Assembly (NCBI RefSeq): GCF_000974785.1
Contig: NZ_BBWV01000004.1
Coordinates: 310,001-374,000 of the forward strand
Source of the DNA: Flavihumibacter petaseus NBRC 106054
Lineage (GTDB): Bacteria > Bacteroidota > Bacteroidia > Chitinophagales > Chitinophagaceae
Length of the DNA stretch: 64,000 nt
Direction: 5' to 3'
Shown: one piece after another, positions 14,138 to 44,782 of the stretch
How positions within the stretch are numbered: position 1 is the stretch's first letter
Layout: every line of letters begins with the position of its first letter
Notes under the pieces: model-generated
What the model was told of the DNA's origin: nothing
Databases searched by the model: none
What the model saw: the letters and a program-made list of their open reading frames with translations, nothing else
Translations under genes and position numbers: made by a program

Positions 14138-14164
14138 TTTTCTTCTATTTTATCTCAATTCACC

Positions 14165-14172: not shown

Positions 14173-14180
14173 CACCGCAA

Positions 14181-16803: not shown

Positions 16804-16825
16804 GTAAATTGAAAGGATTGGAAAA

Positions 16826-17248
16826 TTACAAATTAAAACCCGAATTAAGGTTAAGCCTTCGTGTGTTCCCATCCACTAACGTCAATTGCAGTGTTTCCAC
16901 CCCTGGTGGCAACAAGTGGGGAATTTTTTCCGGCCACTCAACGAAGCACCAGCTGCCGCTATACAGGCATTCCTCTACTCCGGCATCAATCGCTTCCTCT
17001 TCATCCTTCAACCGGTAACAATCGATATGGAATACAGGCTGGCCTTCACTGACATACTCATTAATGATAGAAAAAGTCGGACTTCCGACAGCGCCCTTAA
17101 CCGACAGCGCCTCGCAAAGTGCATGGACCAGTGTCGTTTTGCCCGCTCCCATCCCGCCTGAAAGCGCCACCGTTCTGGGGGTTTCCCAGTGGCTGATCAA
17201 CCGATGGGCAATATCATTGATTTGTTGGAGTGAAAAATCCAGCTGCAT
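16826..17248 (-). CDS. tsaE: tRNA threonylcarbamoyladenosine biosynthesis ATPase TsaE
   Basis: ATPase partner of TsaB/TsaD in making t6A37 of tRNA. The ATG at 17248 gives a 140-aa protein, the normal family size; the longer upstream frame runs into the copA region and lacks support. Walker A GGMGAGKTT (31-39, Lys37), SPTFSIINEY and HIDCYRL, then the late WPEKIPHLLP motif are diagnostic. A TATTTTTG element ends 4 nt before the ATG, suggesting a leaderless transcript. The stop lies 22 nt before the alanine dehydrogenase start, so the two may form an operon. Confidence 0.92.
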   Translation of the reverse strand: MQLDFSLQQINDIAHRLISHWETPRTVALSGGMGAGKTTLVHALCEALSVKGAVGSPTFSIINEYVSEGQPVFHIDCYRLKDEEEAIDAGVEECLYSGSWCFVEWPEKIPHLLPPGVETLQLTLVDGNTRRLNLNSGFNL

Positions 17249-27011: not shown

Positions 27012-27157
27012 AGCAATCCGATTTTGATTGTTGAATGATGTATGTTTCCTACGGGGCGGGAGCATTACCAATCGGAGCCTGGGAGGTCACACAAATTATT
27101 GAAAAATATCATCAATCGAGTCCGGCAGGGAAAATAATATACTGGTAACAGGGGGGC

Positions 27158-27877: not shown

Positions 27878-29458
27878 TTATTGCCGGAGCCATTGCGTCA
27901 GTGCGAGGTAAACGCCATTGCTCCAGCCAAAGCCATCCTGTGACGCATATTCACCACCACCCGCGGCTTTATTCAGATCAGCCACATTGTATTTCTCCAT
28001 CATTTTACCGGTCTCTTTAAATACTTTTTCATTCAGCTTTGTCCACCTGGTGGCGATATCCCTTGCCAGTGCTATCTGACCGGCTCTTGCGAGCCCGCTT
28101 ACTGCCATCCATTCAAGCGGCGCCCATCCGTTCGGAGCATCCCATTGTTCGCCGGTATTGTATTCCGAAGTCTGCAATCCCCCGGGCTGCAATAATTTTT
28201 CGCGTACGATCACCGCTGCCTGACTCCCCTGTAAACTGAGATAACCCTGACGGTCAGGAAAGAAACAAAAAGGATACAGGCCGGCAATGGTGATGGCGTT
28301 GGTCATTTTTCCCTTTCGGAACTGGTAGTCGGTATAAAATTTCAGTGTACTGTTCCAGCAATATTTGTCAATGGCCTGACGGCGCTTTTCAGCTTTTTCA
28401 CGGAATAACGTTGCCGTGGAATCATCTTTCACCATAGCACGTGATCTTGCAATAACGGATTCCAGGTTGTACAACAGGCTGTTCAGGTCAACAGGAACAA
28501 TGTCTGTGGTTTCGATTGTAATGATGTTCTGATGATCAGTAAACCAACGGCTGCTGAAGTCGATGCCGCTGGTGGCTCCGGCCCGCAGATGCTGGTACAT
28601 GACGACTTTATTCCGGTTGGAACGTTGTGCGGTTTCCACATCTTCGCGATAGCTTTCCTGCCTGGGTACTGTGCTTTCATCCCAGTTGCGGTTCAGCACA
28701 GTGCCATCCTTTAGTTTCACTACATATTTAAGCGCACTTCCCGGTTTAACTTCTGCCTCTCCATCCATAAAATAGGCATACTCCTTTTCCATCGCAGGCA
28801 AGTAATCCACCAGTACCTGATCGCCTTTAACCGATGCCAGCAATTCAACCATCATGGCAAAGAATGGCGGCTGCGACCGGCTGAGGTAATACGTGCGGTT
28901 GCCATTGGGGATGTGCCCGTAGGTATTGATAAGGTAAGCGAAATTCTTTACCATGCTCTCCATGAGTTCATGTTCACCGGATACTTTCAGACCAAGCATC
29001 GTGAAATAGGAATCCCAGTAATAAATCTCACGGAATCTTCCGCCGGGAACGATATACGGATTGGGAAGCGGCAGCAGAGAAGAACCTTTTACCTGTTGAT
29101 CAGGCTCGCGGCGCAATACCTTCCAGAGTTTCGTGATGTGGGTGGTGATGTCTTCATCCGGCGGCGTAACGTACGACTCCGTCGGGCTCTTCGGAATGTC
29201 AAAATTCTCTTCCACAAACAATTGCAGTGAAAGGCGGATCGCAGGATTCTTTTTTATGGCAAGATAATCCCGTACAATTTCTACAGGATCCCGTTTGGGT
29301 ATACAGTCCACAAAGGTTTTTCCGTCAGGAAAGATCTTACTCATCTGAACATCCGTAAACAGTTGTCCATACACCTGGTCAGGAGTTGGCGGAATGGTCT
29401 GTGCATGTGTCAGACAAAACGATACACAACAACCCAAGGTGAGCAAGATCTGTTTCAT
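27878..29458 (-). CDS. treF-like: Secreted trehalase, GH37
   Basis: Hydrolyses alpha,alpha-trehalose to two glucoses by inversion. The ATG at 29458 starts a signal peptide (MKQILLTLGCCVSFCLTHAQ), so the enzyme is periplasmic, like TreA. 526 aa. Both family signatures are present: PGGRFREIYYWDSY and QWDAPNGWAP, and the end motif GGGEYASQDGFGWSNGV. The proposed acid Asp300 lies in TSGIDFSSRW, where the usual motif is ESGWDFSSRW, and Glu488 lies in EKYN instead of EKYD: the catalytic residues are kept but neighbours differ. It follows the GH65 gene by 16 nt, same operon. Confidence 0.9.
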   Translation of the reverse strand: MKQILLTLGCCVSFCLTHAQTIPPTPDQVYGQLFTDVQMSKIFPDGKTFVDCIPKRDPVEIVRDYLAIKKNPAIRLSLQLFVEENFDIPKSPTESYVTPPDEDITTHITKLWKVLRREPDQQVKGSSLLPLPNPYIVPGGRFREIYYWDSYFTMLGLKVSGEHELMESMVKNFAYLINTYGHIPNGNRTYYLSRSQPPFFAMMVELLASVKGDQVLVDYLPAMEKEYAYFMDGEAEVKPGSALKYVVKLKDGTVLNRNWDESTVPRQESYREDVETAQRSNRNKVVMYQHLRAGATSGIDFSSRWFTDHQNIITIETTDIVPVDLNSLLYNLESVIARSRAMVKDDSTATLFREKAEKRRQAIDKYCWNSTLKFYTDYQFRKGKMTNAITIAGLYPFCFFPDRQGYLSLQGSQAAVIVREKLLQPGGLQTSEYNTGEQWDAPNGWAPLEWMAVSGLARAGQIALARDIATRWTKLNEKVFKETGKMMEKYNVADLNKAAGGGEYASQDGFGWSNGVYLALTQWLRQ

Positions 29459-29474
29459 ATATGATGTTTGGAGC

Positions 29475-31520
29475 TTATTGTACAGTATAAGTCTTTTTAT
29501 CCGGACCAATGCCGGTCAGCGTCAGTTTTTTCCAGCCGGCAGGCAGCACAGTTTTCAACTGGGTGATGCCGGCAGGAGTAATATCCAGGCCTCCGAATCC
29601 CATCAGCACACTTTGCAGAACGCCACCAGCCCCGGTGGCAAAATAAGGGTTGGTGCCGCCTTTGGTTTCCGCCACAACCCGGAATGGGGGATTAAGGTTG
29701 GGTTCATATGACTCCCGGAACCAATGGAGCGCCTTGTCGCGGTCGCCGAGTCGGGCGTAAAGGGTGGTGAAAACCGCCTGGGTCATAGCGGGAGTGCCTG
29801 CATCGGGTACTCTCTGTTCATAATAGGCAAGGTCACGTTTAATAGCCGCAACATCCTTAATTTCTTTTAAAGGGTAAGCCAGCAGGTTAACATCGGCCTG
29901 TTTAATGCCCTCCCCCTGGTAACTGGCATGTTCGCGGGTAGTTCCATCAGGGAATTTGAGAATCGGAATATTCCTGGCTACCACCATCCAGTCGGGATCG
30001 GGGGACAGCCCAAGTATTTTTGCTGCGTCAGTGGCAAACTGAAGATTTGCTTTTGCTGCTGCATTAGTGAAGGCGTTGTTGTCAACATTCTCAGCCCATT
30101 CATCTGCCGCCACCACATTATTGATGGCATAGTTTCCCGGACCATTCCTTTCTACCCGGCTCGCCCAGAAATCTGCCGTGGCGGACAGGATTGGCCAGCC
30201 CTTTTCGCGAAGCCAGGTTTTATCTTGTGTTACGGCATAATAATTCCAGGCGGCAATGGCCACACATGCCGTGATATGGTGCTCGAAAGGCCCGCTCAAT
30301 GCCCATACCGGCGTTTCTTCCACGCCGGTGTCAGCGCTTTCCCAGGGAAACATGGCTCCCTTGTAGCCTTTGGAAAATGCATTCCGGCGCGCCGCTGCCA
30401 GTCGCTGGAAACGGTACTCTACCATACTTCGGGCGATTTCCGGATGCAATACCAGGATGGCCGGATACATCCAGAGTTCCGTATCCCAGAAAACATGCCC
30501 ATTGTATCCGAGCCCGCTCAATCCCATCGGCGAAGGCGAATATGCCGTCCCTTCCCGGGTGAAGGAATACAGGTGATACATCATCGAGTGAATATCCTGC
30601 TGCGCCTGGGGATCGCCTTCGATCCTGATATCACTTGTCCATAAATTTTTCCATGCCTCACGATGCAGCCGCAGGAGGCGGTCCTTCCCTTCCAGGCGGG
30701 CGAATATGGTCAGCCTTTCCGCTTCATTCAGCGGGTCATCATGATGGGCAGAAGTGATAGAAGAACCCGCAATGGCGAACTGGTAGGAATCGTTTGCCTT
30801 AACCTGCTTCGCAAATTTCATGAGGTGCATATTGTTGTCCCACATTTCATGAATCACCCGGGGTTCCTGCCCATGCGGTTCCCGGAACAGGAAACTGTTG
30901 CTGGCACATAGCAGGAGTTTTCCGGTTGGACTTTTCCCGGTGCTGGTCAACAGGCTCAATACTGCATGCGGCCGGTCGATTTCATTATAATAATTCTGCA
31001 CGTCGCGCAGCGCATCCGGCGCTTCCATTACACTTGCCACGCTGATCCTGCAATCCTGGCGGGCCTGAACAGAAACGTCCATCAATACCGTAAACGGCAA
31101 CTGCCGCAATGCGTAATAGGTATAAGAAACAGTGGCTTTTTCTCCCACATCAAAGGTGGTGGTAAACGCCCCCTCCTGCATGTTCAATGACTGGCGCAGG
31201 TTCTTTACTTTATCCGCTGAAATACGTACGCCGTCAACATCCAGCTGCATGTTCAACAGGTTAAATGAGCGCAGGAAATTACTTACCCTGCCCCTGCCAT
31301 ACTGATCATATGCACCTGCCAGCACCACATCCTTCACCCTGAATGGTTCGGGTGCAGAAACGATCCCGATCATGCCGTTGGCAACCGTAATACCAAAATA
31401 CCCCGATGGCTGAATGGAATCGGCTTTGATCAGCCACGGATCCGGTTGCTGGGAATAGAGAAGAAAAGGTAAAAACAGGAAGACGGGAACGGAAAATATT
31501 GATCGAATATATCGGGCCAT
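29475..31520 (-). CDS. Secreted GH65-family glycoside hydrolase
   Basis: 681 aa with a signal peptide (to about SQQ, residue 25). Features of GH65: NGHVFWDTELWMYPAILVLHPEIA, general-acid Glu474 in AADEWAENVDNN and IKQADVNLLAYPL. Glu618 in VAETKGGTNPYFATGAGG lies 144 residues after Glu474, the same spacing I recall for the acid and base pair (E472/E616) of the Flavobacterium johnsoniae GH65 kojibiose hydrolase, so a hydrolase rather than a phosphorylase is likely. Substrate may be trehalose, kojibiose or a related alpha-glucoside. First gene of the minus operon with treF; divergent from the SRPBCC pair across 62 bp. Confidence 0.85.
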   Translation of the reverse strand: MARYIRSIFSVPVFLFLPFLLYSQQPDPWLIKADSIQPSGYFGITVANGMIGIVSAPEPFRVKDVVLAGAYDQYGRGRVSNFLRSFNLLNMQLDVDGVRISADKVKNLRQSLNMQEGAFTTTFDVGEKATVSYTYYALRQLPFTVLMDVSVQARQDCRISVASVMEAPDALRDVQNYYNEIDRPHAVLSLLTSTGKSPTGKLLLCASNSFLFREPHGQEPRVIHEMWDNNMHLMKFAKQVKANDSYQFAIAGSSITSAHHDDPLNEAERLTIFARLEGKDRLLRLHREAWKNLWTSDIRIEGDPQAQQDIHSMMYHLYSFTREGTAYSPSPMGLSGLGYNGHVFWDTELWMYPAILVLHPEIARSMVEYRFQRLAAARRNAFSKGYKGAMFPWESADTGVEETPVWALSGPFEHHITACVAIAAWNYYAVTQDKTWLREKGWPILSATADFWASRVERNGPGNYAINNVVAADEWAENVDNNAFTNAAAKANLQFATDAAKILGLSPDPDWMVVARNIPILKFPDGTTREHASYQGEGIKQADVNLLAYPLKEIKDVAAIKRDLAYYEQRVPDAGTPAMTQAVFTTLYARLGDRDKALHWFRESYEPNLNPPFRVVAETKGGTNPYFATGAGGVLQSVLMGFGGLDITPAGITQLKTVLPAGWKKLTLTGIGPDKKTYTVQ

Positions 31521-31582: not shown

Positions 31583-32548
31583 ATGTTAAAAGGGCGAAAG
31601 TTTTTATTGATCTTATTCCTCGGTTTGCTGAGCATGCTGGTACTTTTATCAGTAAGTCTGCCCCTTGACTTCATTACACGGGCATCCGTTCCGTTCACGA
31701 TGACACGCACCATTGAACAACTTCAGGACCCTCACCGCATGATGAAATGGATTCTGCCATATGCCGATCAGGACTCAGGTAGCGTTAAGGCTTTCAAAGC
31801 TGGCCGGCCTGGTATCCGGTACAAGACTGACAGCGTTGTACTGATGACGGCAAAACCTGAAAGTGCAACATTGGCTTTCACCCGGGATGGCAAGGAAAAG
31901 CAATATGATTTTCTGGTTACCAGAGACAGGAGGGACACACGGCGTTGCAATGTTACACTGACTATTACCACCACCCTTTGGAAAAGACTGATCGACCGTG
32001 ACCCCATTGATGTAGAAGTGATCAAAAGCATGGGAAACCTTAGTCGCTATGTCAATGACACCCGGCTGTTTTATGGATACGCGATAAGGGAAGGCCGCGT
32101 AAAAGACAGTATACTTATTTCCCTGACCACCGCAGTGCCCGTTACCGACGAATATTTAAGGTCGGGAAAACTGTTTGACTCACTGATCAGGTTCACACAA
32201 TTAAAATCGTTGCGGTATAACGGAAACCGTTATTTTCACCGCCAATACCTCGAGCACGACAGCGTTCAGATTACGGCCAGCATTGGTGTTAAAAGCCTTT
32301 TCGAACCGGAACCTGGCGACGGACTAAACAAGAAGTTCTTGCCTTTTGGTGAAAAGCAACTTGAAATTGAGTACAGGGGACCTTACCAGGATGTTACCGG
32401 TGCCTACAAAGCGCTTGAAAATTATAAAAGGGACCACGCCATTATCAATTCCGGCTTACCCCTTGAATTGTACAGCAGTCCCGGATTTGGTTTTGACTCC
32501 TCAGACACCGTCAGCCTGATGCTCTGCCTGCCTTTCACCGAGAATTAA
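31583..32548 (+). CDS. Membrane-anchored SRPBCC/GyrI-like protein, copy A
   Basis: 321 aa with one N-terminal membrane anchor (LLILFLGLLSMLVLLSVSL). The middle part looks like a degenerate SRPBCC (START-like) domain, with RTIEQLQDPHRMMKWILPY in place of the usual helix, and the C-terminal third fits a GyrI-like effector-binding fold (EYRGPYQDVTGAYKALENYKRDHAI ... VSLMLCLPF). It aligns along its length with the next gene, so they are paralogs. Small-molecule binding is inferred from the fold only. A weak GAGG precedes the ATG by 5 nt. Located between the two halves of the sugar-utilization locus. Confidence 0.6.
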   Translation: MLKGRKFLLILFLGLLSMLVLLSVSLPLDFITRASVPFTMTRTIEQLQDPHRMMKWILPYADQDSGSVKAFKAGRPGIRYKTDSVVLMTAKPESATLAFTRDGKEKQYDFLVTRDRRDTRRCNVTLTITTTLWKRLIDRDPIDVEVIKSMGNLSRYVNDTRLFYGYAIREGRVKDSILISLTTAVPVTDEYLRSGKLFDSLIRFTQLKSLRYNGNRYFHRQYLEHDSVQITASIGVKSLFEPEPGDGLNKKFLPFGEKQLEIEYRGPYQDVTGAYKALENYKRDHAIINSGLPLELYSSPGFGFDSSDTVSLMLCLPFTEN

Positions 32549-32584
32549 GCACTAAGCAACAGAAACATATCATTTAACTTTTGC

Positions 32585-33538
32585 ATGCGTTCCAAGAAAA
32601 TTTTAATCACTGTTTCAGCTGCATTGATTGCAGCCGTTCTCCTCACTTTATTTATTCCGGTCAAAAAACAATATACGGCCCGTATACCCCTGCCGATCGA
32701 ACGCACTGTTGCACAGCTGGCAGCAGTTGAAAACGTGCAAAAGTGGTTCACACCATTCACCCAGTCCAATCCCGGTTCCGGTTCCGGAAAGGCATCCGGT
32801 CAGTGGGAACTCACATCGGGCGACTACAGCCTGAAGATCGCTGGTGCAAACTCATTTTATGTGGCACTGTCCTTCAGTAACAAATCTCAAACCGCAATGC
32901 TGAATTTCCAGGTAAACCCCGATTCAGGTTATATGGACATGTCACGTATTACCCTGACGGTGAAAAGGAATATATGGGGTGCAATCAGCGGTAGAAACGA
33001 GCTGTTGGAAACAGCCATTGCGAATCTTTCCGCCCTGGAAACCTATACAGGGAATAACAGGAGGCTTTATGGACTTGACATCAAACATGAGCTTGTAAAG
33101 GATTCTGCTTACCTGTATACAAAAAGGACCATCGGCCAGACCGGATTGGGACAAACGGCTTCAACGCTCTGCAGGCAGCTTACAGATTTTGCAAACAAAA
33201 ATCATCTTGAAATTGCGGGATCGCCCATCATCAATATCAAACAGGTCGGAACAGATAGCACCCAGGTATCCGCGGGATTGCCGATTCATACCTATATCTA
33301 TCTCGCTCCCGGCAATATCATTCAATACCGACAAATGCCGTTCGGTAAAAAGCTACTGGAGGCTCCTTTCAAAGGAGGCTACCGCGACCTGCCAGCCGCT
33401 TTCGACAAATTGAAAAGCTACGCTGATGACCACCGGCTGACCATAATGGCCATCCCCTATGCCAAATACACAGGTGAACAGATTGATTTTGCTGACGGTG
33501 ATCTGATCGACTTTACCGTATATTTCCCGGTAGACTGA
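32585..33538 (+). CDS. Membrane-anchored SRPBCC/GyrI-like protein, copy B
   Basis: 317 aa, paralog of the preceding gene 36 nt upstream. One N-terminal anchor (ILITVSAALIAAVLLTLFIPV), SRPBCC-like middle with IERTVAQLAAVENVQKWFTPF, and a clear GyrI-like end: EAPFKGGYRDLPAAFDKLKSYADDH ... YAKYTGEQ ... DFTVYFPV. Proteins of this layout are common in Bacteroidota and uncharacterised. Its last 26 bases overlap the 3' end of the convergent propeller gene. Confidence 0.65.
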   Translation: MRSKKILITVSAALIAAVLLTLFIPVKKQYTARIPLPIERTVAQLAAVENVQKWFTPFTQSNPGSGSGKASGQWELTSGDYSLKIAGANSFYVALSFSNKSQTAMLNFQVNPDSGYMDMSRITLTVKRNIWGAISGRNELLETAIANLSALETYTGNNRRLYGLDIKHELVKDSAYLYTKRTIGQTGLGQTASTLCRQLTDFANKNHLEIAGSPIINIKQVGTDSTQVSAGLPIHTYIYLAPGNIIQYRQMPFGKKLLEAPFKGGYRDLPAAFDKLKSYADDHRLTIMAIPYAKYTGEQIDFADGDLIDFTVYFPVD

Positions 33539-36500
33539 CGAGCTGCAGGCTGTCGTTGTTTTTAGCCAGCAACAGGGCTGATCCGCCTTTTGCCAACCTG
33601 ATTATGCCTGATCGCCGCACCTGTCCCCTGATGACGAGGCCAGGCAGATTATGGTAACCAAAAGTTCCGTCTCCCCTGCCTATCAACAGATCGCCGAAGT
33701 CGCCGTCATTCCTTCCCATCTGGATGTTATTGTCATAATAATTACCGAAACACAACCAATCAACCCTTCCATCATTATTGTAGTCGAAAGGAACAGCCGG
33801 ATAGATTGGCGACAGCTGAGCCTGCCACGGCAACGGAACCGCAGTATAATTCAGGTGACCGTCATTGATGAGGATAACTGAAGTAAATTCATCTGCGGCC
33901 AGCGTGTCTGCCTCCTGAAGTTTTTGCAATCCGAAAAGGGCCGTCATATCTGCCCTGGCAAAATCAGCCGCATACAGGAATTTCTTTTTCAGGAGGGGCA
34001 TCTGCCGTTCCAGTTCTCCCTTGTTGGCGAAAGGCCGTTCAAGCCCGTGAATGTAATACGTAAGGATCTGGTCCTTTTTGCCATTACCATCAAAGTCGTT
34101 CACGTAAAGCCTGACGGGCTGTTGCGGCGTAGGATTTAACCTGAAGTTATGGCCCGCATTTCCTGCAATCAGGTCCAGGTCGCCATCACCATCCACATCT
34201 GCTTCCTGCACCGAATTCCACCAGCCACGGGCAGGGTAAATTATCTTTTTGCTTAATCTTCCCCCATTATTTTCGAACAAGGTTACCGGGCCCCATTCCA
34301 GCGCCAGCAAAAGGTCCATGTCTCCGTCTTTGTCCAGATCCACCCAATGTCCGTCTTTAACAAATCCTGCCTGTGACAGACCCGGGGCGAGGCTTGCCGT
34401 CATTTCGCGGTAACCACCTTTGCCGTCGCTGATGAACAGGTAAGAATCGGGAACCTTTCCGTAGTTGTAAACCATGCAACGGCCACCGAGAAAAATATCC
34501 GCATAACCGTCACCGTTGATATCTGCAAGGCTGACGGCTGATGCTGTCAATTTGATTGAATCCAGGATGCTGGGATACCTCACAAATTTTCCTGTGCCGT
34601 TATTAACATAGATCCGCGAACACTGCCGGATGGAACTTCCGTAATACTCATTACCACCGCTGGCCACAACCAGGTCAGGGAAGCCGTCTTTGTTAACGTC
34701 ACCCCATGAAGCAGCCACATCTTCGAAGATGCTGTCAGCATCCAGTACCGGCTGGTTCGTTCGTGTGAATTTTCCGCTGGCCTGTTGTAAAAAAACAGCG
34801 GATCTGCTATCCTTTGCACCGCCAACAAAAATATCATCGAGGTGATCACCATTGATATCACCGATGGCCAATGCCGGTCCTTCTGTGGAAAGCTTGTGCG
34901 GCAGCAATTGTTCCCTGTCGAACTCACCGAAATCATCTTCCTTGTGCTGGTACTTTAATCCAGATCCGGAAGTGATGTCATGCATAACCGGCAAGTCTCC
35001 GGCACCAGGCAGGATCGATGTCCGGTCAAATACAGGCAAACCTGATTGGTAAGCTATTTTCATTACAGGCCGTGCACTGTCATAATCAACAGGCTGACTG
35101 GTGCCATCAGGCCAGATGAGTTTTATGGAATCCGGCAGGAACCTGCCCATTCCGATATGCAGCGGGATCTCCATGCTGGACTGGAATCCGTGAACCGGGT
35201 ACTTCTCATAAGTCCTGATCTGCCCTTCCTTTTCAAAACATACTACAGTAGCCCCCAGTGCATGAATATTCCCGGCCGGCCCCTGCAACTGAATGCTGAG
35301 GTACCGGCTGCTGTCAGTTTCCCTGCTCTGATTTCGATAGATCATCACCGGGTCATTGATATTATTGGTTACAATATCGAGATCCCCGTCATTGTCAAGG
35401 TCAGCATATATCGCCCCGTTACTGAACCCAGGTTTGTCTCCCGCAATATGCCCTGCCAGATCTTCGAACTTCAGGTCACCGCGGTTACGGAAAAACCTGT
35501 TATTCAGCCTGATCTCCGGAAAGGTTTGTGACAGGGCTACATTCCGTTCATCCAGGTTGCCGGCCCTGACCTGCGCCTGCACTTCGTCATTCGAAATGTA
35601 ATTCACAAAATCCATGTCATTCATGCGTTTGGGTATGCCGTTGGAAACGAAAAGGTCCTTCCACCCGTCGTTGTCAAAGTCCATCCACAAAGCAGCCCAT
35701 GACCAGTCTGTAGCATGAATGCCACTGAACACACCCACTTCACTGAACATACCATTTCCGCGGTTTAACTGCAGGTTATTTCGGGTATACTGATAATTGT
35801 AGCCATAGCCGATCTTCGAATAGAACAGGTTATACTCATCCTCTCCCAGCGACCGTTTCAGGATATAGGGATCATCCGGCAACATGTCCATGCTGATGAT
35901 ATCAGGCAAGGCATCATTATTGATATCAGCAGCATCAACCCCCATCGAGAACTGGGACGTGTGCATGATGTGATCGTTCAGTTCATCCCTGAAAGTACCA
36001 TCACGCTGGTTGATATACAGGTAATCGTTCTCGTGAAAATCATTTCCGATATAGATGTCCGGATAGCCATCGAGATTGATGTCTGAAACAACAATTCCGA
36101 GCCCGTACCCGATTGCGCTGCTGTTGATGCCACAGGCCCGGGTGATGTCAGTATAGCGGTTCCCTTCATTACGGAAAAACCGGTCACCTGACAACGGATG
36201 GTAAGTACCTGTAAATAATTTACGTTCACCGAAAGTGCCATTGTGATGTACGCTATGGTTCAGCAGGAACATATCGAGATCCCCGTCTTTATCGAAATCC
36301 AGGAAAGCAGCCTGTGTTGAAAATCCCGAAAAATCAAGTCCCCATTCCGCGGCAGCTTCGCGGTAAGCCGGGATACCGTTTTTAATGCCAGTGCAGAGCA
36401 GCAGCTGGTTTTTGCTGATCAGATGTTCATATTGCCCGACCCGGCAAACATAGATATCGAGAAGGCCGTCATTATTGATATCCACCACTGACACGCCGGT

Positions 36501-36830
36501 CGACCATGCGTGATCATCGGGAATACCGGCTTCGGCGGACACGTCCGTGAAATGCAGATCGCCTTCATTGAGATAAAGCCTGTTGGATTGCTGGTTGGCT
36601 GCAAAAAAAAGGTCAATCTTTCCGTCATTATTAAAATCACCTGCCCCTACTCCTGCACCATTGTAGAAATACATGTATTTAAAAAGGTTCAGTTCCGGAG
36701 AAGGCGTAAGCACGTTACTGAACGCTATTCCGGTTTTTTTTGCCGGCACCAGGTCAAATGCCGCCTTTTCCTCAGGCGCTGAGCATGCTGCCAGGAATCC
36801 CGAAAACAGCACTACCAATACTTTTTTCAT
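33513..36830 (-). CDS. Outer-membrane FG-GAP/VCBS beta-propeller lipoprotein with ASPIC/UnbV module, copy 2
   Basis: 1105 aa lipoprotein: signal peptide with lipobox LAAC (Cys16). Seven DxDxDG-type calcium motifs (from DFNNDGKIDLFF at 65 to DLDNDGDLDIVTN) precede an ASPIC/UnbV module (GATVVCFEKEG ... GFQSSMEIPLHIGMG ... IKLIWPDG), and seven more follow (DINGDHLDDIFVG to DYNNDGRVDWLCF). This implies two seven-bladed propellers joined by the UnbV module. It starts 2 nt after the stop of its paralog, so the two are made together downstream of SusC/D. Likely surface-exposed; ligand unknown. It could bind glycan or act in cell-surface assembly. Confidence 0.85.
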   Translation of the reverse strand: MKKVLVVLFSGFLAACSAPEEKAAFDLVPAKKTGIAFSNVLTPSPELNLFKYMYFYNGAGVGAGDFNNDGKIDLFFAANQQSNRLYLNEGDLHFTDVSAEAGIPDDHAWSTGVSVVDINNDGLLDIYVCRVGQYEHLISKNQLLLCTGIKNGIPAYREAAAEWGLDFSGFSTQAAFLDFDKDGDLDMFLLNHSVHHNGTFGERKLFTGTYHPLSGDRFFRNEGNRYTDITRACGINSSAIGYGLGIVVSDINLDGYPDIYIGNDFHENDYLYINQRDGTFRDELNDHIMHTSQFSMGVDAADINNDALPDIISMDMLPDDPYILKRSLGEDEYNLFYSKIGYGYNYQYTRNNLQLNRGNGMFSEVGVFSGIHATDWSWAALWMDFDNDGWKDLFVSNGIPKRMNDMDFVNYISNDEVQAQVRAGNLDERNVALSQTFPEIRLNNRFFRNRGDLKFEDLAGHIAGDKPGFSNGAIYADLDNDGDLDIVTNNINDPVMIYRNQSRETDSSRYLSIQLQGPAGNIHALGATVVCFEKEGQIRTYEKYPVHGFQSSMEIPLHIGMGRFLPDSIKLIWPDGTSQPVDYDSARPVMKIAYQSGLPVFDRTSILPGAGDLPVMHDITSGSGLKYQHKEDDFGEFDREQLLPHKLSTEGPALAIGDINGDHLDDIFVGGAKDSRSAVFLQQASGKFTRTNQPVLDADSIFEDVAASWGDVNKDGFPDLVVASGGNEYYGSSIRQCSRIYVNNGTGKFVRYPSILDSIKLTASAVSLADINGDGYADIFLGGRCMVYNYGKVPDSYLFISDGKGGYREMTASLAPGLSQAGFVKDGHWVDLDKDGDMDLLLALEWGPVTLFENNGGRLSKKIIYPARGWWNSVQEADVDGDGDLDLIAGNAGHNFRLNPTPQQPVRLYVNDFDGNGKKDQILTYYIHGLERPFANKGELERQMPLLKKKFLYAADFARADMTALFGLQKLQEADTLAADEFTSVILINDGHLNYTAVPLPWQAQLSPIYPAVPFDYNNDGRVDWLCFGNYYDNNIQMGRNDGDFGDLLIGRGDGTFGYHNLPGLVIRGQVRRSGIIRLAKGGSALLLAKNNDSLQLVSLPGNIR

Positions 36831-36832
36831 AG

Positions 36833-39800
36833 TCAGTGCTTTTCAGATTTAGCGTGTTGCACCGACAGCAAAACAGGAACACTATCATTCTGTGTCACCA
36901 ATAACGACAGGCGTTGCTGAAATTCCAGGAACTGCAATCCCCTTATTTCTCCTTTCAACTGCAATCCCGAAAATGCAGGATCATTGTTTTGCCATTGCCG
37001 GTTTCCCTGGTTGAACAGGAGATGTCCTTCACTGGCATCAAGCCTGCAGAATTGCGGTTGCAGGTGGAGGTTATTCCCGCCCATAACCATGTCAGCCTTT
37101 CCATCGCCATTAATATCCTTTACAGCAATTGCATTTACAGACGACAATTGAACAGGATACGGCAATTCACTGACGGAGAAATTACCCTTCCCGTCATTCC
37201 AGGCCACAATGGATGCATTGTAATTAAAGATCCTGACGGTAGCCTTAGACAAAACTTTCTCAGGAAACAATTCCTGGATAGATTTCAAAGCGTATTGTTC
37301 ATGCTTTAGATTCTGTTTTTTCAAACTCGGAATCTGATCCGTCAGTTCTCTTTTCAGAAACACCGGTTTGTCTTTCCCGTCAATGGTGCGGGTCAGTATT
37401 TTCTCTTCCTGGCCATTCTGGTCAAAATCGCCGATCCAGAGTTTAATCGGATGTTTTTCATCCGGTTTCAGGTAGAAATTCTTTCCGGAATTTCCGAGTA
37501 CCAGGTCCGTTTTACCGTCATTATCAAGGTCTGCAGCAACCAACGCACCCCACCATCCCTGTAAGGCATCCAGTGATGTTTTAGTGCGAACAAGTTTTCC
37601 ACCCTGGTTGAGAAACACCTGAGGCGACATCCACTCACCGGTGATCACGAGGTCAGCCCTGCCGTCCTGATTAATATCCGCCCATGCCGCACCGGTAATC
37701 ATCCCTGCCTGAACCAGTTCAGGACTGACAGATGCCGTCTGATCAGAAAAATTTCCCTTTCCGTCATTGATGTAGATATAACTATTCGGGGCATTGCCAT
37801 ACTGCTGCGGCACATTCCTGCCACCCACAAAAAGATCGGCATCACCATCACCATCTATATCGTTTGCTATGGCCACGCTGATATTTTCTGTGTTTGCCGG
37901 AAAGGCGTTCTGCTTCCATTCAAAATTGCCCTTTCCGTCATTCAGGAAAAGCCGGTGTGCGAGTCCTGATGGCTGCGGCGTAATAAAGTTGCCGCCAGCG
38001 CCGATAAACAGGTCCTGGTCGCCATCATGATCTGCATCAAAGAACAATACAGCATCGTCATCAATCCCGCGGTTAAGGTTGAATGCAGGGATCTCTTTTT
38101 TCACAAACCCGTTTGCCTGCTGCAGGTAGATCATCCTCGGCTGGTTCACTGCACTTCCGATAAACAGATCCGTCAGGCCGTCTCCGTTCACATCTGCGGC
38201 TGTTATTTTCGGTCCTTCCCGGGACAGCATCACAGGAAGGTTTCTTTCATAGTAAAAATCGATATAATCATCTTCCTGGTGCTTGTCAAAAGGGGCACCG
38301 GCAACCCGGGTAAACAGCACGGGCGGGACGCCGGCATCCGGAACGAATGGTTTTGCTGCAGCGGACGCTGTTAAATGGTAAGTGGAATCCACAGCGGGAT
38401 GAAGCCAGGTGTCAACGCTCCTGTCAGGCCAGATCACCTGCATACTGTCAACGGGCAACTTGCCGGTACCGATCACAATTTTATAATCAACTGAAGACTG
38501 AAATCCACGGGAAGGTATCAGTTCACGCGACAAGACTTTACCGCCCTGGAAAATCCGCACCTGCGAACCAACTGCAAAAGTATTCAGCCCCTTTCCTTTC
38601 AGCACAACGGAGATCGTATGATTGCCGTCATTTCTGTTCTGCATATTCCTGTACACAAATGCCTTGGCGTTAACGTTGTTCACCACGAGGTCCAGGTCAC
38701 CGTCATTGTCCAGGTCCCCATAGGCAGCGCCATTGGAAAAGGACGGTTCATCGAGGCCCCATCGGCTGGCCATGTCTTCAAACTGAACGTCACCTTTGTT
38801 GCGGAACATTTTATTGGCGATCGGTCTTGACGGCATATTGTTGATGACCTCATCCACTTCTTCCCGCTTTCCCGTGAGCACCATTTTTTGAATAATATCG
38901 TTGGCAAAGAAGTCGATGAAATCCTGGTCCGTAACATCCTGGAAGATCCCGTTGCAAACGTAGAGATCGGTAAGTCCGTCATTATCGGCATCGAAGAACA
39001 ATCCGCCCCAGCTCCAGTCGGAAGCTGCCACGCCACTGTAAAATGCTGTTTCCATAAATTGACCATTACCATTATTCACCTGCAGCGTATTCTGCATGAA
39101 CTGATTGTAAAAGCCGCTTTTCTGTTTGAGGCGTTGTATGTCGATGTTCTCAAAAGAAGTGGTTGTTTTCAGCCTGGTTTCATTGTCGGGAAGCATTTCC
39201 GTAACGAAAATGTCTTCACGTCCGTCGTTGTTGATATCAGCCATATCTGCACCCATGGAAGAGTGGCTGATGTGCTGTACCCTGTTTTCCAGTTCGTCAC
39301 GGAAAGTGCCGTCCCGCTGGTTGATATAGAGATAGTCCCGCTCGAAAAAATCGTTGGACACATAGATATCGGGATAGCGATCACCGTTTACATCGCCTAC
39401 TGTTACGCCGAGACCGAAGCCGATCAGGCTTCCGTAAATATGGGCGGCTTCACTGACATCAGTAAACCGACCACCATCATTGCGGAGCAGTTTGTCGCCA
39501 CCTCCTTTCAGGAAATCTGCCACGGGCCAGTCTTTGGCACGGAGGTCCCGTTTATTGGCATAGTTGAGTGTATTGACAGGAATAAAACTGTTGTTCAGAA
39601 TATAGCAGTCGAGATCCCCATCCAGATCGTAATCAAAGAATGCGGCATGGGTGGTATAGCCGCCTTTGTTATCGAGGCCATATATCGCAGCATGATCAGT
39701 AAAAGTATTGTCGCGGTTGTTTACATACATTTTACAGACCGGCACGCGGCCGTTGATATACCCTGCATTGCACACAAAAATATCCAGCCAGCCATCGTGA

Positions 39801-40156
39801 TTGATATCAACCATTACAACTCCGGTGCTCCAGTTTTCTGCATCGGCAACGCCGGCTTTGTCAGTAATGTCCTGGAAAGCGAAATTGCCCTTGTTGAGGT
39901 AGAGTTTGTTGCTGCCCATATTGGCAGTGAAAAAGACATCGGCCAGGCCATCATTGTTGATATCGCCGATTGCACAACCGCTTCCGTTATAAAAGTTGCG
40001 GTAGTTGAAAATGTTGAAATCGCGGGTGTTCTCAATCTTGTTCTGAAAGTCGATACCAGAATTTTCCACCCGGTTGAACAGGGGGTTTGAACTGGATTTA
40101 TCGCGGCAGGAAATCAGCAAGCAGCCCATCAACGCGAACAAAGCGATTCTTTTCAT
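36833..40156 (-). CDS. Outer-membrane FG-GAP/VCBS beta-propeller lipoprotein with ASPIC/UnbV module, copy 1
   Basis: 1107 aa lipoprotein, lipobox LISC (Cys17). First propeller region about 65-495 with seven motifs (DINNDGLADVFF, DINHDGWLDIF, DYDLDGDLDC, DVNGDRYPD, DINNDGREDIF, DADNDGLTDLY, DLDNDGDLDLV); ASPIC/UnbV module about 512-595 (GSQVRIFQGGK, SRGFQSSVDYKIVIGTG, MQVIWPDRS); second region from ~655 with seven more (DVNGDGLTDLF to DINGDGKADMVMG). Clearly homologous to the next gene but diverged. A strong hairpin lies between susD and this start and probably lowers its expression relative to susCD. Confidence 0.85.
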   Translation of the reverse strand: MKRIALFALMGCLLISCRDKSSSNPLFNRVENSGIDFQNKIENTRDFNIFNYRNFYNGSGCAIGDINNDGLADVFFTANMGSNKLYLNKGNFAFQDITDKAGVADAENWSTGVVMVDINHDGWLDIFVCNAGYINGRVPVCKMYVNNRDNTFTDHAAIYGLDNKGGYTTHAAFFDYDLDGDLDCYILNNSFIPVNTLNYANKRDLRAKDWPVADFLKGGGDKLLRNDGGRFTDVSEAAHIYGSLIGFGLGVTVGDVNGDRYPDIYVSNDFFERDYLYINQRDGTFRDELENRVQHISHSSMGADMADINNDGREDIFVTEMLPDNETRLKTTTSFENIDIQRLKQKSGFYNQFMQNTLQVNNGNGQFMETAFYSGVAASDWSWGGLFFDADNDGLTDLYVCNGIFQDVTDQDFIDFFANDIIQKMVLTGKREEVDEVINNMPSRPIANKMFRNKGDVQFEDMASRWGLDEPSFSNGAAYGDLDNDGDLDLVVNNVNAKAFVYRNMQNRNDGNHTISVVLKGKGLNTFAVGSQVRIFQGGKVLSRELIPSRGFQSSVDYKIVIGTGKLPVDSMQVIWPDRSVDTWLHPAVDSTYHLTASAAAKPFVPDAGVPPVLFTRVAGAPFDKHQEDDYIDFYYERNLPVMLSREGPKITAADVNGDGLTDLFIGSAVNQPRMIYLQQANGFVKKEIPAFNLNRGIDDDAVLFFDADHDGDQDLFIGAGGNFITPQPSGLAHRLFLNDGKGNFEWKQNAFPANTENISVAIANDIDGDGDADLFVGGRNVPQQYGNAPNSYIYINDGKGNFSDQTASVSPELVQAGMITGAAWADINQDGRADLVITGEWMSPQVFLNQGGKLVRTKTSLDALQGWWGALVAADLDNDGKTDLVLGNSGKNFYLKPDEKHPIKLWIGDFDQNGQEEKILTRTIDGKDKPVFLKRELTDQIPSLKKQNLKHEQYALKSIQELFPEKVLSKATVRIFNYNASIVAWNDGKGNFSVSELPYPVQLSSVNAIAVKDINGDGKADMVMGGNNLHLQPQFCRLDASEGHLLFNQGNRQWQNNDPAFSGLQLKGEIRGLQFLEFQQRLSLLVTQNDSVPVLLSVQHAKSEKH

Positions 40157-40229: not shown

Positions 40230-41756
40230 TTAATAGCCGGGGTTCTGCTCCAGGGCAGGGTTTGCAGCTTTAGCTGCATTGGGAATCGGGAACAGCAGGT
40301 ATTTATCGTCAGATTTTTCAGGCTTTGTAGGTCCGAACGGATCCAGGAATTTACCGAAGCGGATCAGGTCGTTCCTGCGCCAGCTTTCCCAATACAGTTC
40401 GCGGCCACGCTCATCGAGGAGTTTGTCCAGGTCAAGCGTTGCCAGCGCTGTTGCGCCGCGCTTCACACGGATCTCATTAACGATGTCCAGTGCATCCTCT
40501 GCATTACCGGTGCGGAGCAGGGCTTCTGCTTTCATGAGCAACACATCTGAATAGCGGAGAAATACATAGTCATTCTCTGCGATATCCTTGTCACCGCTGT
40601 AATCTGACTTCATATCCGGAACATATTTCACTACGCGGATACCGGGCAGCTCAACGTTTCCATCGACAATCGGGGTAATATCACGGGTGAACACCAGGGG
40701 ATTACCACCACGGTCAACCAACGCAACATTGTCTTTGCCATACTGCTGACCAACCAGGAAGCCAACCCTCATTCCCACCTTGTCGGTGAAACCGGTGTAA
40801 GCTTTACCCTTCCGCTGGTCCTGGTCTTCAAACTTGTCGTAGAAATTTGCCAGGGTCGTGAAACCATTCCAGCCGCTTGGGTTCTGGTTGTAGTGGGTAC
40901 CGGCATGCCAGTGGAAACGCACGTTACCTGCTTCTGTTGTTGTATTCTCGTTGGCAAAAATGATCTCTTTGGAAGTCTCCGTATTCTTGGGAATAAAGCT
41001 GGAATAAAAATCACTTTCCAGGGCAAACTTGCCGCTGTTGATGATCTCATCAGCCAGGGAGATGACCTTCTGCATGTCAGCTGCGTCGAAAGTTGGCGCT
41101 TTTCTGTTCAGGAAGGCGCCCCTGTTCAGATACAGTTTCATGAGTATGGCTTTTGCCGCCCATTTGTTGGACTTGTTGGCCGGGCCGTCGCCGAGATCCG
41201 GCAACGCCTTGTCAATATCCGCTTGTATCTGGTCGATTGCAGCCTGCCCCTCAAGAATTTCAGGAGGAAGGTTAAGATCAGATCCTACCTGGCGGAAAGG
41301 CACTTTGTTGTACAGGTCAAACACGTTATAGGTTACCCAGGCACGCAGCATATAAGCCTGCGCTGCAACATCTGCAGGCGGATTATAATTCTGGATATCC
41401 GTTGTAAGGAACACAATCTGAAGGAGGTTAGAAAAGTTGTCGCGGATCCGCTGATTCTCAGCATCCCATTTCTGCGTATGCAACACGCGCCACACGCCGT
41501 TATCATCCCAGTCACCACCACGGGTTGGTCCGATTGCATCATCAGATGTCATATCCTGCAGACACCAGATACCTGTCTGATCCTGGAATGGTCCGTACAT
41601 GGCAGTGTAACAGGATTTCAGCAAACCAGGAATGTCCGCATTCTCTTTGAATTCATTTTGGGGAATGGAACCATTCAGGCTCTCGTCCAGCTTGGTACAA
41701 CCAACGGTTGTAACCATGCCTCCCAGGACTATTATAAATGTTTTTAACGCTTTCAT
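40230..41756 (-). CDS. susD-like: SusD/RagB-family outer-membrane lipoprotein
   Basis: 508 aa substrate-binding partner that caps the SusC channel. Signal peptide with lipobox VGC (Cys20). N-terminal TPR-like helices and the usual late motifs: NDYVFLRYSDVLLMKAEALLRTGNAEDALDIVNEIRVKRGA, ERGRELYWESWRRNDLIRFGKF and LFPIPNAAKAANPALEQNPGY. The first ~100 residues include DQTGIWCLQDMTSDDA. It follows susC by 17 nt. The bound sugar cannot be read from sequence; the locus enzymes point to alpha-glucosides. Confidence 0.93.
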   Translation of the reverse strand: MKALKTFIIVLGGMVTTVGCTKLDESLNGSIPQNEFKENADIPGLLKSCYTAMYGPFQDQTGIWCLQDMTSDDAIGPTRGGDWDDNGVWRVLHTQKWDAENQRIRDNFSNLLQIVFLTTDIQNYNPPADVAAQAYMLRAWVTYNVFDLYNKVPFRQVGSDLNLPPEILEGQAAIDQIQADIDKALPDLGDGPANKSNKWAAKAILMKLYLNRGAFLNRKAPTFDAADMQKVISLADEIINSGKFALESDFYSSFIPKNTETSKEIIFANENTTTEAGNVRFHWHAGTHYNQNPSGWNGFTTLANFYDKFEDQDQRKGKAYTGFTDKVGMRVGFLVGQQYGKDNVALVDRGGNPLVFTRDITPIVDGNVELPGIRVVKYVPDMKSDYSGDKDIAENDYVFLRYSDVLLMKAEALLRTGNAEDALDIVNEIRVKRGATALATLDLDKLLDERGRELYWESWRRNDLIRFGKFLDPFGPTKPEKSDDKYLLFPIPNAAKAANPALEQNPGY

Positions 41757-41773: not shown

Positions 41774-44700
41774 TTAAAGTGACAGATTAAGTCCCACCAT
41801 GAAAACTCTGGCAGAAGGGTAAGGCGTGTACTCGATACCGAATGAAGGAACACCATCAACAGGTTTGGGGGTGTTTACTTCCGGATCAAATCCTGTGTAT
41901 TTGGTAATCACGAACAGGTTTTGTCCGGTGATATATACAGAGGAATTCCTTACATACTTTGAAATTTTGCCCAGCTGATAAGAAAAGGTCAGGTTGGCCA
42001 TTTTGAAATAGTCACCTTTTTCAAGATACCGGGTAGACACCGGCTGGGGAGCATTGGTAACTTCATGCAGACTCGGTACATACACAGAGCTCGCAACGTT
42101 TTTGTTGGTAGCGAGGTTGTTAATGGTCAACACTGCCTGGGTGGTGTTGTTGTAAACTTCCTGGCCGAATGCACCATTCATATTCGCTGTTGCTGAAAAC
42201 TTCTTATAGGCAAAAGTAGTGCTGAAACCCAGCAAAGTTTTGGGGTTGGGATCTCCTACAAAATATTTGTTCGCTACATTATTGGGATCGCCGCCTTCAA
42301 ACTGTGCATTACCATTTTTGTCAATGCCCAGGAATTTACCCATGTAGAAAGCATTGATGGGCTGACCATTCTCCAGTTTTTGAGAAGTGGCTCCTGTAAG
42401 GCCCTGACCTGTGATAGCACCGGTATAGATCGGGGGACCGAAATAATCATTCATTTCATTCTTGAGGAAAGAAGCAAACACGCCTACGGTCCAGGTCATG
42501 TCATCCTTACTGATAATCTCACTGTTGATGGTAACTTCAAGACCACTATTGGTTACCGTTCCGGGGATGTTGCTCCACCCGAGGTAACCAGGAGCAGGAT
42601 CGACTGCCTTGGAATTGATCAGGAGGTCATCTGTTTTCTTGATAAAGTATTCTACACTACCATACAGGCGGCTCTTGAACAGGGAGTAGTCAACACCGAA
42701 GTTCAGTGTGGTTGAAGTCTCCCATTTCAGATTGGGGTTGGCGAGCTGGATTTGTCGAACAGTACCGGGACCAGTATATACGTACCTGGCCTGGGAAGCT
42801 CCTGAAGGGAAATCCTGGTTACCCGTTACACCATAACCAACGCGGAGTTTCAGGTTGTTCACTACGCTGGAACTTTTCATGAAATCTTCGTTGGTGATAT
42901 TCCATGCAAAAGCTGCAGAGGGGAAGTAACCGTACCGGTTGTTTTTACCGAATTTATTGGACCCGTCAGCACGCATTGTACCGGTTAGCAGGAAACGGTC
43001 CTTGAAGTTCAGGTTTACCCTGCCAAAGAAAGATTGCAATTCTGCAGTGGGATCGATAAAGGAACCCATATCCCTGGAAGCAACAGACGAACCGCCCATG
43101 TAGTCCCAGTAAGGCAATGAATTGGAAGGGAAGTCACGGGCAGTCTGATAGTGACCATTGTAGTCAAACTTCATGTATTCGTAACCCAGCGTAGCACCGA
43201 GATAGAGCGACTTATTCAGTTGCTTGTTGTAGTTCAGGGTGTGGGTGAGTTGTTTGGTAGTCATCTCGTTGTCGAGAATGCCTGCCCAGCCACGATCCAG
43301 GTTACCCTGGAGATTCATCCAGTTCGCCATTTGCGCTTTACGGTTACCAAGGCCATAATTGATGGATACCAGGAAACGGTATTCCAGGTCATTGGTAATC
43401 TTAAAATAAGGGGAGAGGCTGGCCAGAATGTTGGTAGTCCGGGCGCGGTCCTCATAAGCTTCTGACATCGCGAGCGGGTTATAGTTCGTTTCCGGGAACG
43501 GCGCCTTGCGGATGTTCAGCGATCCGTCAGGATTGCGGAGCGGACGCGTTGGGTTCCACTGAAGCGCCATACCGATCAAACTTCCTTCGAAACCGGCGTC
43601 ATTCGAAATAGGCGCCACATGTTCTACGGTCTGTGATGTCAGGATATTGATATCAAGACCGAGTCTTTTGTTTTCCAGGAATTTGAAATTGCCGTTAAGG
43701 GAAGCGGTGTATTTTTTCATGTCGGTCTTCTGCACGATACCATCCTGGTCGTAATAACCGATGGATGCACGCAGTCTCGCATTTTCATTTCCACCACTGA
43801 TACCGGCAGTATAATTCTGGAAGAAACCGGAACGGGTAATGGCGTCCATGGCATCAACATTTCCGCCATAATCGTTGGTATCTTTTTTATATAAACCATA
43901 ATCTTTCAGTGCGGCCCGGTATTGATCACCGTCAAGAACGTCCAGTTGTTTCAACATCTGGCTGAAACCGAAATTGGTAGTAACATCCAGTTTCGGCGCA
44001 CCTGAAGTACCTCTTTTGGTAGTGATCAGCACCACACCGTTTGCACCGCGTGATCCATAGATCGCTGTCGCAGAGGCATCTTTCAGCACATCCATGCTGG
44101 CAATGTCCTGTGGGTTGATGAAGTTAAGAGGGTTGGCGTCAGGTGTATTACCCAATCCCGGAGAGTTCAGACCCGGACGGGCAGAACGGCCATCAAGGGG
44201 AACACCATCCACTACGTACAAAGGACCACCGCCTGCACGGATAGTGGCCGTACCGCGGATCCTTACTGTTGTGGCGCCACCAGGCTGACCACTGTTGTTC
44301 AGGATCTGAACACCGGCGATCTTGCCCTGGATCAACTGATCCGGAGCACTCATGATACCCTGGTTAAAGTCTTTTTCCTTTACGGTGGCTACTGATCCGG
44401 TCAGGTCCTTTTTACGGGCTGTACCATAACCTACCACCACCACCTCATTGAGGTTGGAGTTTGATGCAGTCAACGCTACCGCCAGATCTGATGTCGTTGC
44501 CGAAATCGACTGTTCGGTAGAACCAAATCCAATTGAACTGATAACCAGTGTCTTGGCAGAAGCCGGAACACTGATCTTGAATGTACCATCAGCACCGGTA
44601 GAGACCCCCTGTGTAGAGCCTTTTACCGTAACTGTCGCCCCCACAATCGGAGACCCATCTTTTTGATCCGTGATTTTTCCTGAGATCACCCTTTGGTCCT

Positions 44701-44782
44701 GTGCCTGGATGGCAGAGCAGAGCAAGAGCAGTAGCAAGAGAGCAGAGAGCCCCCTTACCCAACGTGGCAATGCAGCAATCAT
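41774..44782 (-). CDS. susC-like: SusC/RagA-family TonB-dependent outer-membrane transporter
   Basis: 1002 aa. Signal peptide ending SAIQAQ, a CarboxypepD_reg-like domain (VISGKITDQKDGSPIVGATV, ~31-105), a TonB-box-like stretch NEVVVVGYG, plug domain with GKIAGVQI and RIRGTATIRAGGGPLYVVDG, TKRG, and a 22-strand-type barrel ending in GLNLSL. No N-terminal sigma-regulator (STN) domain, so it is probably not a direct signalling receptor. Co-transcribed with susD. Uptake needs TonB-ExbBD encoded elsewhere. Confidence 0.95.
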   Translation of the reverse strand: MIAALPRWVRGLSALLLLLLLCSAIQAQDQRVISGKITDQKDGSPIVGATVTVKGSTQGVSTGADGTFKISVPASAKTLVISSIGFGSTEQSISATTSDLAVALTASNSNLNEVVVVGYGTARKKDLTGSVATVKEKDFNQGIMSAPDQLIQGKIAGVQILNNSGQPGGATTVRIRGTATIRAGGGPLYVVDGVPLDGRSARPGLNSPGLGNTPDANPLNFINPQDIASMDVLKDASATAIYGSRGANGVVLITTKRGTSGAPKLDVTTNFGFSQMLKQLDVLDGDQYRAALKDYGLYKKDTNDYGGNVDAMDAITRSGFFQNYTAGISGGNENARLRASIGYYDQDGIVQKTDMKKYTASLNGNFKFLENKRLGLDINILTSQTVEHVAPISNDAGFEGSLIGMALQWNPTRPLRNPDGSLNIRKAPFPETNYNPLAMSEAYEDRARTTNILASLSPYFKITNDLEYRFLVSINYGLGNRKAQMANWMNLQGNLDRGWAGILDNEMTTKQLTHTLNYNKQLNKSLYLGATLGYEYMKFDYNGHYQTARDFPSNSLPYWDYMGGSSVASRDMGSFIDPTAELQSFFGRVNLNFKDRFLLTGTMRADGSNKFGKNNRYGYFPSAAFAWNITNEDFMKSSSVVNNLKLRVGYGVTGNQDFPSGASQARYVYTGPGTVRQIQLANPNLKWETSTTLNFGVDYSLFKSRLYGSVEYFIKKTDDLLINSKAVDPAPGYLGWSNIPGTVTNSGLEVTINSEIISKDDMTWTVGVFASFLKNEMNDYFGPPIYTGAITGQGLTGATSQKLENGQPINAFYMGKFLGIDKNGNAQFEGGDPNNVANKYFVGDPNPKTLLGFSTTFAYKKFSATANMNGAFGQEVYNNTTQAVLTINNLATNKNVASSVYVPSLHEVTNAPQPVSTRYLEKGDYFKMANLTFSYQLGKISKYVRNSSVYITGQNLFVITKYTGFDPEVNTPKPVDGVPSFGIEYTPYPSARVFMVGLNLSL

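Follow-up and report, generated by a model that had tools for sequence, protein, structure and literature searches.

Two adjacent genes in a 64,000-nucleotide stretch of Flavihumibacter petaseus NBRC 106054 (contig NZ_BBWV01000004.1, positions 310,001 to 374,000; hereafter the window) encode large lipoproteins, A and B, that are predicted to share one architecture: a seven-bladed propeller, a UnbV/ASPIC module and a second seven-bladed propeller. The two are 38% identical end to end over 1113 columns, and both open reading frames (ORFs) were judged real. Computation yields for the pair a predicted fold and blade count, an insertion in the second ring, family-wide conservation, a lipobox, tandem retention of both genes and frequent linkage to genes for SusC- and SusD-type proteins (SusCD). 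Based on these observations, A and B are probably lipid-anchored outer-membrane proteins that assist a TonB-dependent uptake system of the SusC/SusD type as its two accessory subunits.

Asp-rich motifs were counted with the pattern Dx[DN]x[DN]xxx[DE]. In A they start at residues 65, 117, 175, 255, 307, 389, and 481 before UnbV and at 655, 707, 766, 827, 876, 910, and 1014 after it; in B the starts are 65, 117, 178, 250, 302, 384, and 477, then 658, 711, 770, 831, 878, 912, and 1016. The original prediction, that each protein has seven motifs on either side of the UnbV/ASPIC module and that the first lies at residue 65 in both, therefore holds with this pattern. The strict form, D.[DN].[DN]G, leaves 13 motifs in A (6+7; motif 255 lacks the Gly) and 12 in B (6+6; motifs 302 and 658 lack it). 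Chance was rejected as their origin, as 1000 residue shuffles gave means of 0.48 (A) and 0.40 (B) matches and maxima of 5 and 4, against 14 observed in each protein. Among 184 family members, window pair included and ORFs of 1000 amino acids or less omitted, 7+7 is the commonest count (106/184; 52/83 A-like, 19/45 B-like, and 35/56 other members), followed by 7+6 (55/184; 25/83, 16/45, and 14/56, respectively). Thus 7+7 is the family norm and nothing peculiar to the window pair.

The AlphaFold2 models, built from family alignments of 107 (A) and 96 (B) sequences, have a mean predicted local distance difference test score of 93.2 for A and 93.5 for B, and predicted template modelling scores of 0.92 and 0.93. 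In the N-terminal half of A, strand 27–29 is followed by seven strand sets beginning at residues 61, 109, 168, 248, 303, 382, and 474, each with a motif between its first and second strands and with 28 strands in total. Our reading of this strand list supports seven four-stranded blades, of which the last is completed by the first strand. The closest solved relative of both proteins by sequence is CRTAC1 (cartilage acidic protein 1; PDB 9etn), with E-values of 1.3e-12 for A and 1.4e-15 for B. CRTAC1 superposes on A residues 25–599 with Z 40.0, a root-mean-square deviation (rmsd) of 2.3 Å, 454 aligned residues, and 23% identity, and on B with Z 38.0. A and B can thus be described as a CRTAC1-type core to which a second propeller has been added.

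The C-terminal half is less straightforward. In the model of A, strand 615–617 is followed by sets beginning at 651, 699, 758, 819, 871, 1007, and 1071, with four extra strands between 904 and 977. This half therefore has 28+4 strands, and is either a seven-bladed ring with an insertion or an eight-bladed one. An eight-bladed ring, with 904–997 as a separate blade, motif 910 an ordinary blade motif, and only the last blade lacking one, would account for an excess of exactly four strands and for the position of motif 910 between two strands, as for other motifs. We nevertheless rejected it as highly improbable on structural alignment and coevolution. VIA-align placed A residues 610–1106 on the LGI1 EPTP propeller (319/330 residues, rmsd 2.5 Å), PRL1 (293/294, 3.0 Å), and Cdc20 (304/313, 3.2 Å). 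The list for the B model is similar, with LGI1 EPTP leading after CRTAC1 (320/330, rmsd 2.7 Å). We take these LGI1, PRL1, and Cdc20 chains to be seven-bladed, and in the leading rows of both models the C-terminal half covers nearly the whole of such propellers at 2.5–3.5 Å. Most Foldseek rows beyond the first were multi-propeller proteins such as DDB1 at rmsd above 20 Å, and these were disregarded.

Coevolution was scored between inner-strand blocks in a mean-field analysis of 226 homologues (effective number 197), in A numbering. Neighbouring blades of the C-terminal ring gave z-scores of 9.7 (1-2), 9.9 (2-3), 5.0 (3-4), 2.0 (4-5), 3.6 (5-6), 6.1 (6-7), and 2.0 (7-1), and those of the N-terminal ring 3.6, 1.5, 2.0, 2.9, 3.5, and 1.6, with 3.3 for the 7-1 closure. 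In each ring, five of the seven neighbour pairs exceed every non-neighbour pair, the closure of the N-terminal ring among them; the highest non-neighbour value in that ring is 1.6. Weighing against this ring order, the pairs N 2-3, N 6-7, C 4-5, and C 7-1 score no higher than non-neighbours. C 4-5 and C 7-1 are unconvincing on their own, because some C-ring non-neighbours reach the same values (1-5 and 3-5, z 2.2 each; 4-6, z 2.0). The N-terminal closing strand itself shows no signal to blade 7 (z -0.9). For residues 904–997, the block 904–925 coevolves with 973–977 (z 6.2) and not with blade 5 (z -1.4) or blade 6 (z -0.9). The blade 5 strands 871–888 coevolve both with strands 983–997 (z 3.1) and with the blade starting at 1007 (z 3.6). 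An insertion that pairs internally, bridged by a blade that continues on its far side, argues against a separate eighth blade. Models and coevolution are different methods that draw on the same family and hence on overlapping data; together they support seven blades per ring.

The predicted structures of both proteins, with the structural alignment and coevolution, thus bear out the proposal of two seven-bladed propellers joined by a UnbV module that lies inside neither, and support a propeller(7)-UnbV-propeller(7) architecture for A and B. The accompanying idea that motif number reflects blade number survives in part. In the N-terminal ring the correspondence is one to one, but in the C-terminal ring of A motifs 655, 707, 766, 827, 876, and 1014 belong to blades 1–6, motif 910 (912 in B) falls within the insertion of blade 5, and none is present in blade 7. 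The match of seven motifs to seven blades in this half is coincidental. A Dx[DN]xDG-type loop between two blade strands, at some sites without the Gly, therefore occurs in all seven N-terminal blades and six of the seven C-terminal ones.

These features are conserved across the 226 homologues. All seven N-terminal sites are intact in at least 221, C-terminal blade 7 lacks a motif in 222 (it has one in 4), and the insertion motif is kept in 213, usually as D-x-D-x-N-G-x-x-E; because of this conservation the insertion motif is probably functional. Columns conserved at 90% or above number 107/486 in the N-terminal propeller, the most conserved part, 8/88 in UnbV, and 4/86 in the insertion region. 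The lipobox column (C17 in A, C16 in B) is Cys in 95% of homologues. PF07593 (UnbV/ASPIC) is matched above its cut-off of 23.4 bits in both A (52.2 bits, residues 528–593) and B (37.6 bits, residues 524–581). A TcdB_toxin_midN match in A (18.1 bits against a cut-off of 24.8) was taken as a propeller cross-match and discarded. Coordinates are collected in Table 1.

Table 1. Features of the double-propeller gene pair and its neighbours in the window
Feature	Residues	Window position	Strand	Description	Basis
Gene A (P0003)		36833..40156	-	1107 aa; A-type double-propeller lipoprotein; upstream member of the pair	
A signal peptide	to lipobox Cys17 (LISC)	40106..40156	-		Sequence and column conservation
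A N-terminal propeller	25-510	38627..40084	-	Predicted seven-bladed; one motif per blade; ring-closing strand 27-29	Model strands, coevolution, CRTAC1 alignment
A UnbV/ASPIC module	513-596	38369..38620	-	Seven predicted strands	PF07593 and model strands
A C-terminal propeller	611-1100	36857..38326	-	Predicted seven-bladed; closing strand 615-617	Model, structural alignment, coevolution
A blade-5 insertion	894-979	37220..37477	-	Strand 904-909 paired with 972-977; helices 935-970; contains motif 910	
A motif DFDQNGQEE	910-918	37403..37429	-	Seventh C-half motif, outside any blade	
Gene B (P0002)		33513..36830	-	1105 aa; B-type double-propeller lipoprotein; begins 2 bases after A	
B signal peptide	to lipobox Cys16 (LAAC)	36783..36830	-		Sequence and column conservation
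B N-terminal propeller	22-506	35313..36767	-	Predicted seven-bladed	Model and CRTAC1 alignment
B UnbV/ASPIC module	509-593	35052..35306	-		Pfam and model
B C-terminal propeller	612-1101	33528..34997	-	Predicted seven-bladed	Model and structural alignment
B blade-5 insertion	896-981	33888..34145	-	Motif at 912	Correspondence with A (coevolution computed in A numbering)
SusD-family lipoprotein gene		40230..41756	-	Directly upstream of A	PF07980
SusC/RagA TonB-dependent receptor gene		41774..44782	-		TIGR04056, 708 bits
GH65 gene, NCBIfam kojibiose hydrolase		29475..31520	-	Outside the contiguous SusC-SusD-A-B run	NF053734, 1200 bits
GH37 trehalase gene		27878..29509	-	Adjoins the GH65 gene	PF01204, PRK13270

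A FastTree phylogeny of the 226 double-propeller sequences, midpoint-rooted, places A and B in opposite halves, the A half with 118 sequences (support 0.993) and the other side with 108. Both types are present in 83 loci, the window being one. Propeller genes are in tandem in 70/78 homologous loci with a median gap of -4 bases, and 83/89 gaps are 50 bases or shorter. The gene orders in these 78 related loci are AB (44), BAB (17), A (8), BA (4), AAB (3), ABB (1), and ABA (1), and those in 38 other loci are A (18), AB (10), B (6), AA (2), BAB (1), and AAB (1). No count includes ORFs in which over 20 residues are unknown; an example is the UnbV protein at 13305–17009 of locus L016, beside an A gene, so that locus is counted as A only. 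Judged from the tree and gene order, A and B are an old duplication of which both copies have been kept, as had been proposed. The duplication is probably older than the Chitinophagaceae, Saprospiraceae, and Flavobacteriaceae, since both types occur in records of all three.

Other UnbV proteins differ in form. Short ones of about 520–750 amino acids exist alongside the double propellers and show no match to the insertion, and one of these (L149:7936-10008) ends in a sorting domain of the type IX secretion system, which makes this a probable path to the surface for some UnbV proteins. The set of 226 excludes the long UnbV proteins whose C-terminal match is weak, including those of loci L130 and L132. 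The L132 gene (G022:C111) is a 1242-amino-acid frame with two UnbV matches (places 11499 and 13284) and a weaker C-propeller match.

In the window, SusC, SusD, A, and B follow one another on one strand. Among the 68 evaluable homologous loci, which were fetched as relatives of the window pair, SusD lies directly upstream of the first propeller gene in 53, and the order SusC-SusD followed by double propellers is repeated across several bacterial families. Linkage was also counted in a sample of the phylum, comprising 39 hand-picked stretches around long frames (29 double-propeller, 10 other long UnbV) and stretches for 17 of the 30 rows whose frames measure 500–800 amino acids; it omits some long rows (for example, the group of 840–948 amino acids in one genome), and some of its contigs are cut off early. 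In 14/29 double-propeller loci of this sample, a same-strand SusD lies upstream. For the 10 other long UnbV frames SusD is upstream of none and SusC of one, and the 17 stretches retrieved around short UnbV genes have no upstream SusD, although SusC is upstream in two of them (L153, L155). The window genome has 46 SusD_RagB matches and 15 UnbV genes, 14 of them double propellers, and at 8 of its 11 double-propeller loci, counting the window, SusC or SusD precedes the propeller genes on their strand. More widely, of 61 Bacteroidota genomes sampled, the window genome among them, 28 contain UnbV proteins; frames of 1050–1300 amino acids account for 74 of the 120 matches.

If A and B are accessory subunits of such an uptake system, they would be located on the outer cell surface, where their Asp loops may bind metal ions, calcium in the original prediction, and so give the rings rigidity. 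A common scaffold could be formed by the conserved N-terminal propeller together with UnbV, and the less conserved C-terminal propeller with its insertion could serve a ligand or partner. Placed beside SusCD, the pair might help to capture a ligand and hand it to the SusD lid. At the window locus this ligand may be a small alpha-glucoside, a guess prompted by the nearby GH65 and trehalase genes.

Several observations weigh against this assignment or its details. In the phylum sample, 15/29 double-propeller loci have no same-strand upstream SusD in the stretch fetched, and SusD is upstream of two (L099, L116) of three short UnbV genes met inside other stretches. Of the 11 double-propeller loci in the window genome, two carry the propeller gene on the strand opposite SusCD and a further one has no SusCD nearby. 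No ligand site was identified in either A or B. Regarding the alpha-glucoside, two plus-strand genes stand between B and the GH65 gene, and relatives of GH65 and trehalase are near only 15/80 and 9/80 homologous loci; the corresponding 2 and 1 among 39 other double-propeller loci are only indicative, as these control flanks are shorter. Finally, the 15 columns that cleanly separate the 80- and 46-member clades are almost all N-terminal (14 in the N-terminal propeller, 1 in the insertion), which argues against the simple idea that A and B differ through the C-terminal propeller alone.

The loci without adjacent SusCD would also suit a different role, in which A and B serve adhesion in general or belong to a surface layer, much like integrin-type binders of the matrix, and share only their expression with SusCD while playing no role in uptake. 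CRTAC1 belongs to the extracellular matrix. In marine flavobacteria, FG-GAP repeats have been interpreted as adhesion features (PMC2668756). We consider this role unlikely, given the recurrence of the SusC-SusD-double-propeller order over several families, the tight tandem spacing, and the lack of SusD in the stretches fetched for short UnbV genes.

It is less probable still that one propeller is an enzyme acting on sugar (a lyase, dehydratase, or hydrolase), such that the pair processes its ligand before uptake. The C-terminal half does align with the propeller of aldos-2-ulose dehydratase (4a7k/4a7y, Z 28–30), a metal-using sugar enzyme, but LGI1 and WD40 propellers score about equally, so the fold match is silent on catalysis. 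Five Asp and one Glu beyond the motifs are conserved at 95% or above; however, 48 of the 73 non-motif columns at that level are Gly, Asn, Phe, or Trp, and no catalytic site was identified in A or B. A lyase with calcium blades, rhamnogalacturonan lyase, is on record (PMC3123361).

Returning to an accessory role in SusCD uptake, a more specific version is conceivable, if doubtful: that A- and B-type proteins form a conserved heteropair and with it, across Bacteroidota, a SusCD complex of a type not yet described. UnbV would then anchor this pair to SusC, with the metal-rich rings enclosing a vestibule over the SusD lid, and the PAP2-family gene that is frequent downstream would act in the same pathway. 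Such a gene occurs in 46 of 80 loci (L016–L095), directly downstream on the same strand in 41. It encodes about 460 amino acids in the examples scanned (e.g., L049:16540-18908) and is often followed by a GyrI-like gene, which is found in 41/80 loci. Neither gene adjoins the window pair.

The two plus-strand genes downstream of B (window 31583–33538) encode proteins of 321 and 317 amino acids with no Pfam or NCBIfam match. In loci L016 and L020 a pair of relatives (24–33% identity; either query matches both genes) occupies the corresponding place, with the propeller genes on one side and GH65/trehalase on the other, and is again on the opposite strand. Elsewhere in the window, the gene at 25797–27071 combines DUF937 and OmpA domains in one protein. 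A third ORF of 1105 amino acids (45835–49152, plus strand) was rejected as a third copy; it encodes an unrelated Tricorn-like S41 protease (PD40 propeller, Tricorn C1, S41) of the same length by coincidence.

The individual parts of A and B are already known, and protein databases no doubt list double-propeller proteins under generic names. In the open-access literature, we found no description of the double-propeller form, its insertion, or the pairing of A and B with SusCD. VCBS and SusD occurred together nowhere in this literature, and no paper combined three or more of SusD, vanadium-dependent haloperoxidase, FG-GAP, VCBS, and PAP2. FG-GAP and SusD were co-mentioned in two papers, one about horses and one in which they are named in separate contexts. 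Should the pair prove to be a SusCD subunit, many uptake systems contain two large components for which we found no role described, and the A/B split would offer a direct way to test both.

Among known systems, the calcium-blade proteins (integrin alpha, PilY1, rhamnogalacturonan lyase, and a fungal lectin) carry a Dx[DN]xDG loop at their blade tips (PMC3123361), and A and B have the same loop type in their blades. The difference is one of number: the four examples tabulated there list one to three, whereas A and B have motifs throughout the seven-bladed N-terminal ring, in six C-terminal blades, and in the insertion. Accessory lipoproteins of SusCD utilisomes, the surface glycan-binding proteins and glycoside hydrolases, are surface lipoproteins of a SusCD locus, as predicted for A and B. 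The levan and dextran systems provide a precedent for accessory lipoproteins in a SusCD complex, with all four outer-membrane products of the levan locus in one complex (PMC7618045). A and B differ from these in being two paralogues of one unusual fold, and in Pfam and NCBIfam they matched no glycan-binding or hydrolase family.

BtuG, a seven-bladed propeller lipoprotein that acts with the TonB-dependent transporter BtuB in Bacteroides (PMC10404256), resembles A and B in being a propeller lipoprotein working with such a transporter. BtuG is a single propeller and is itself the lid of BtuB, whereas A and B are two double propellers with SusD as the lid. BtuG is not among the sequence and structure matches listed for A and B; as no search was aimed at it, this is no evidence of absence.

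CRTAC1 has a propeller followed by UnbV/ASPIC, the same arrangement as in A and B. CRTAC1 ends in an EGF-type tail; A and B instead add a second predicted seven-bladed propeller with its insertion, a lipobox, and a tandem partner.

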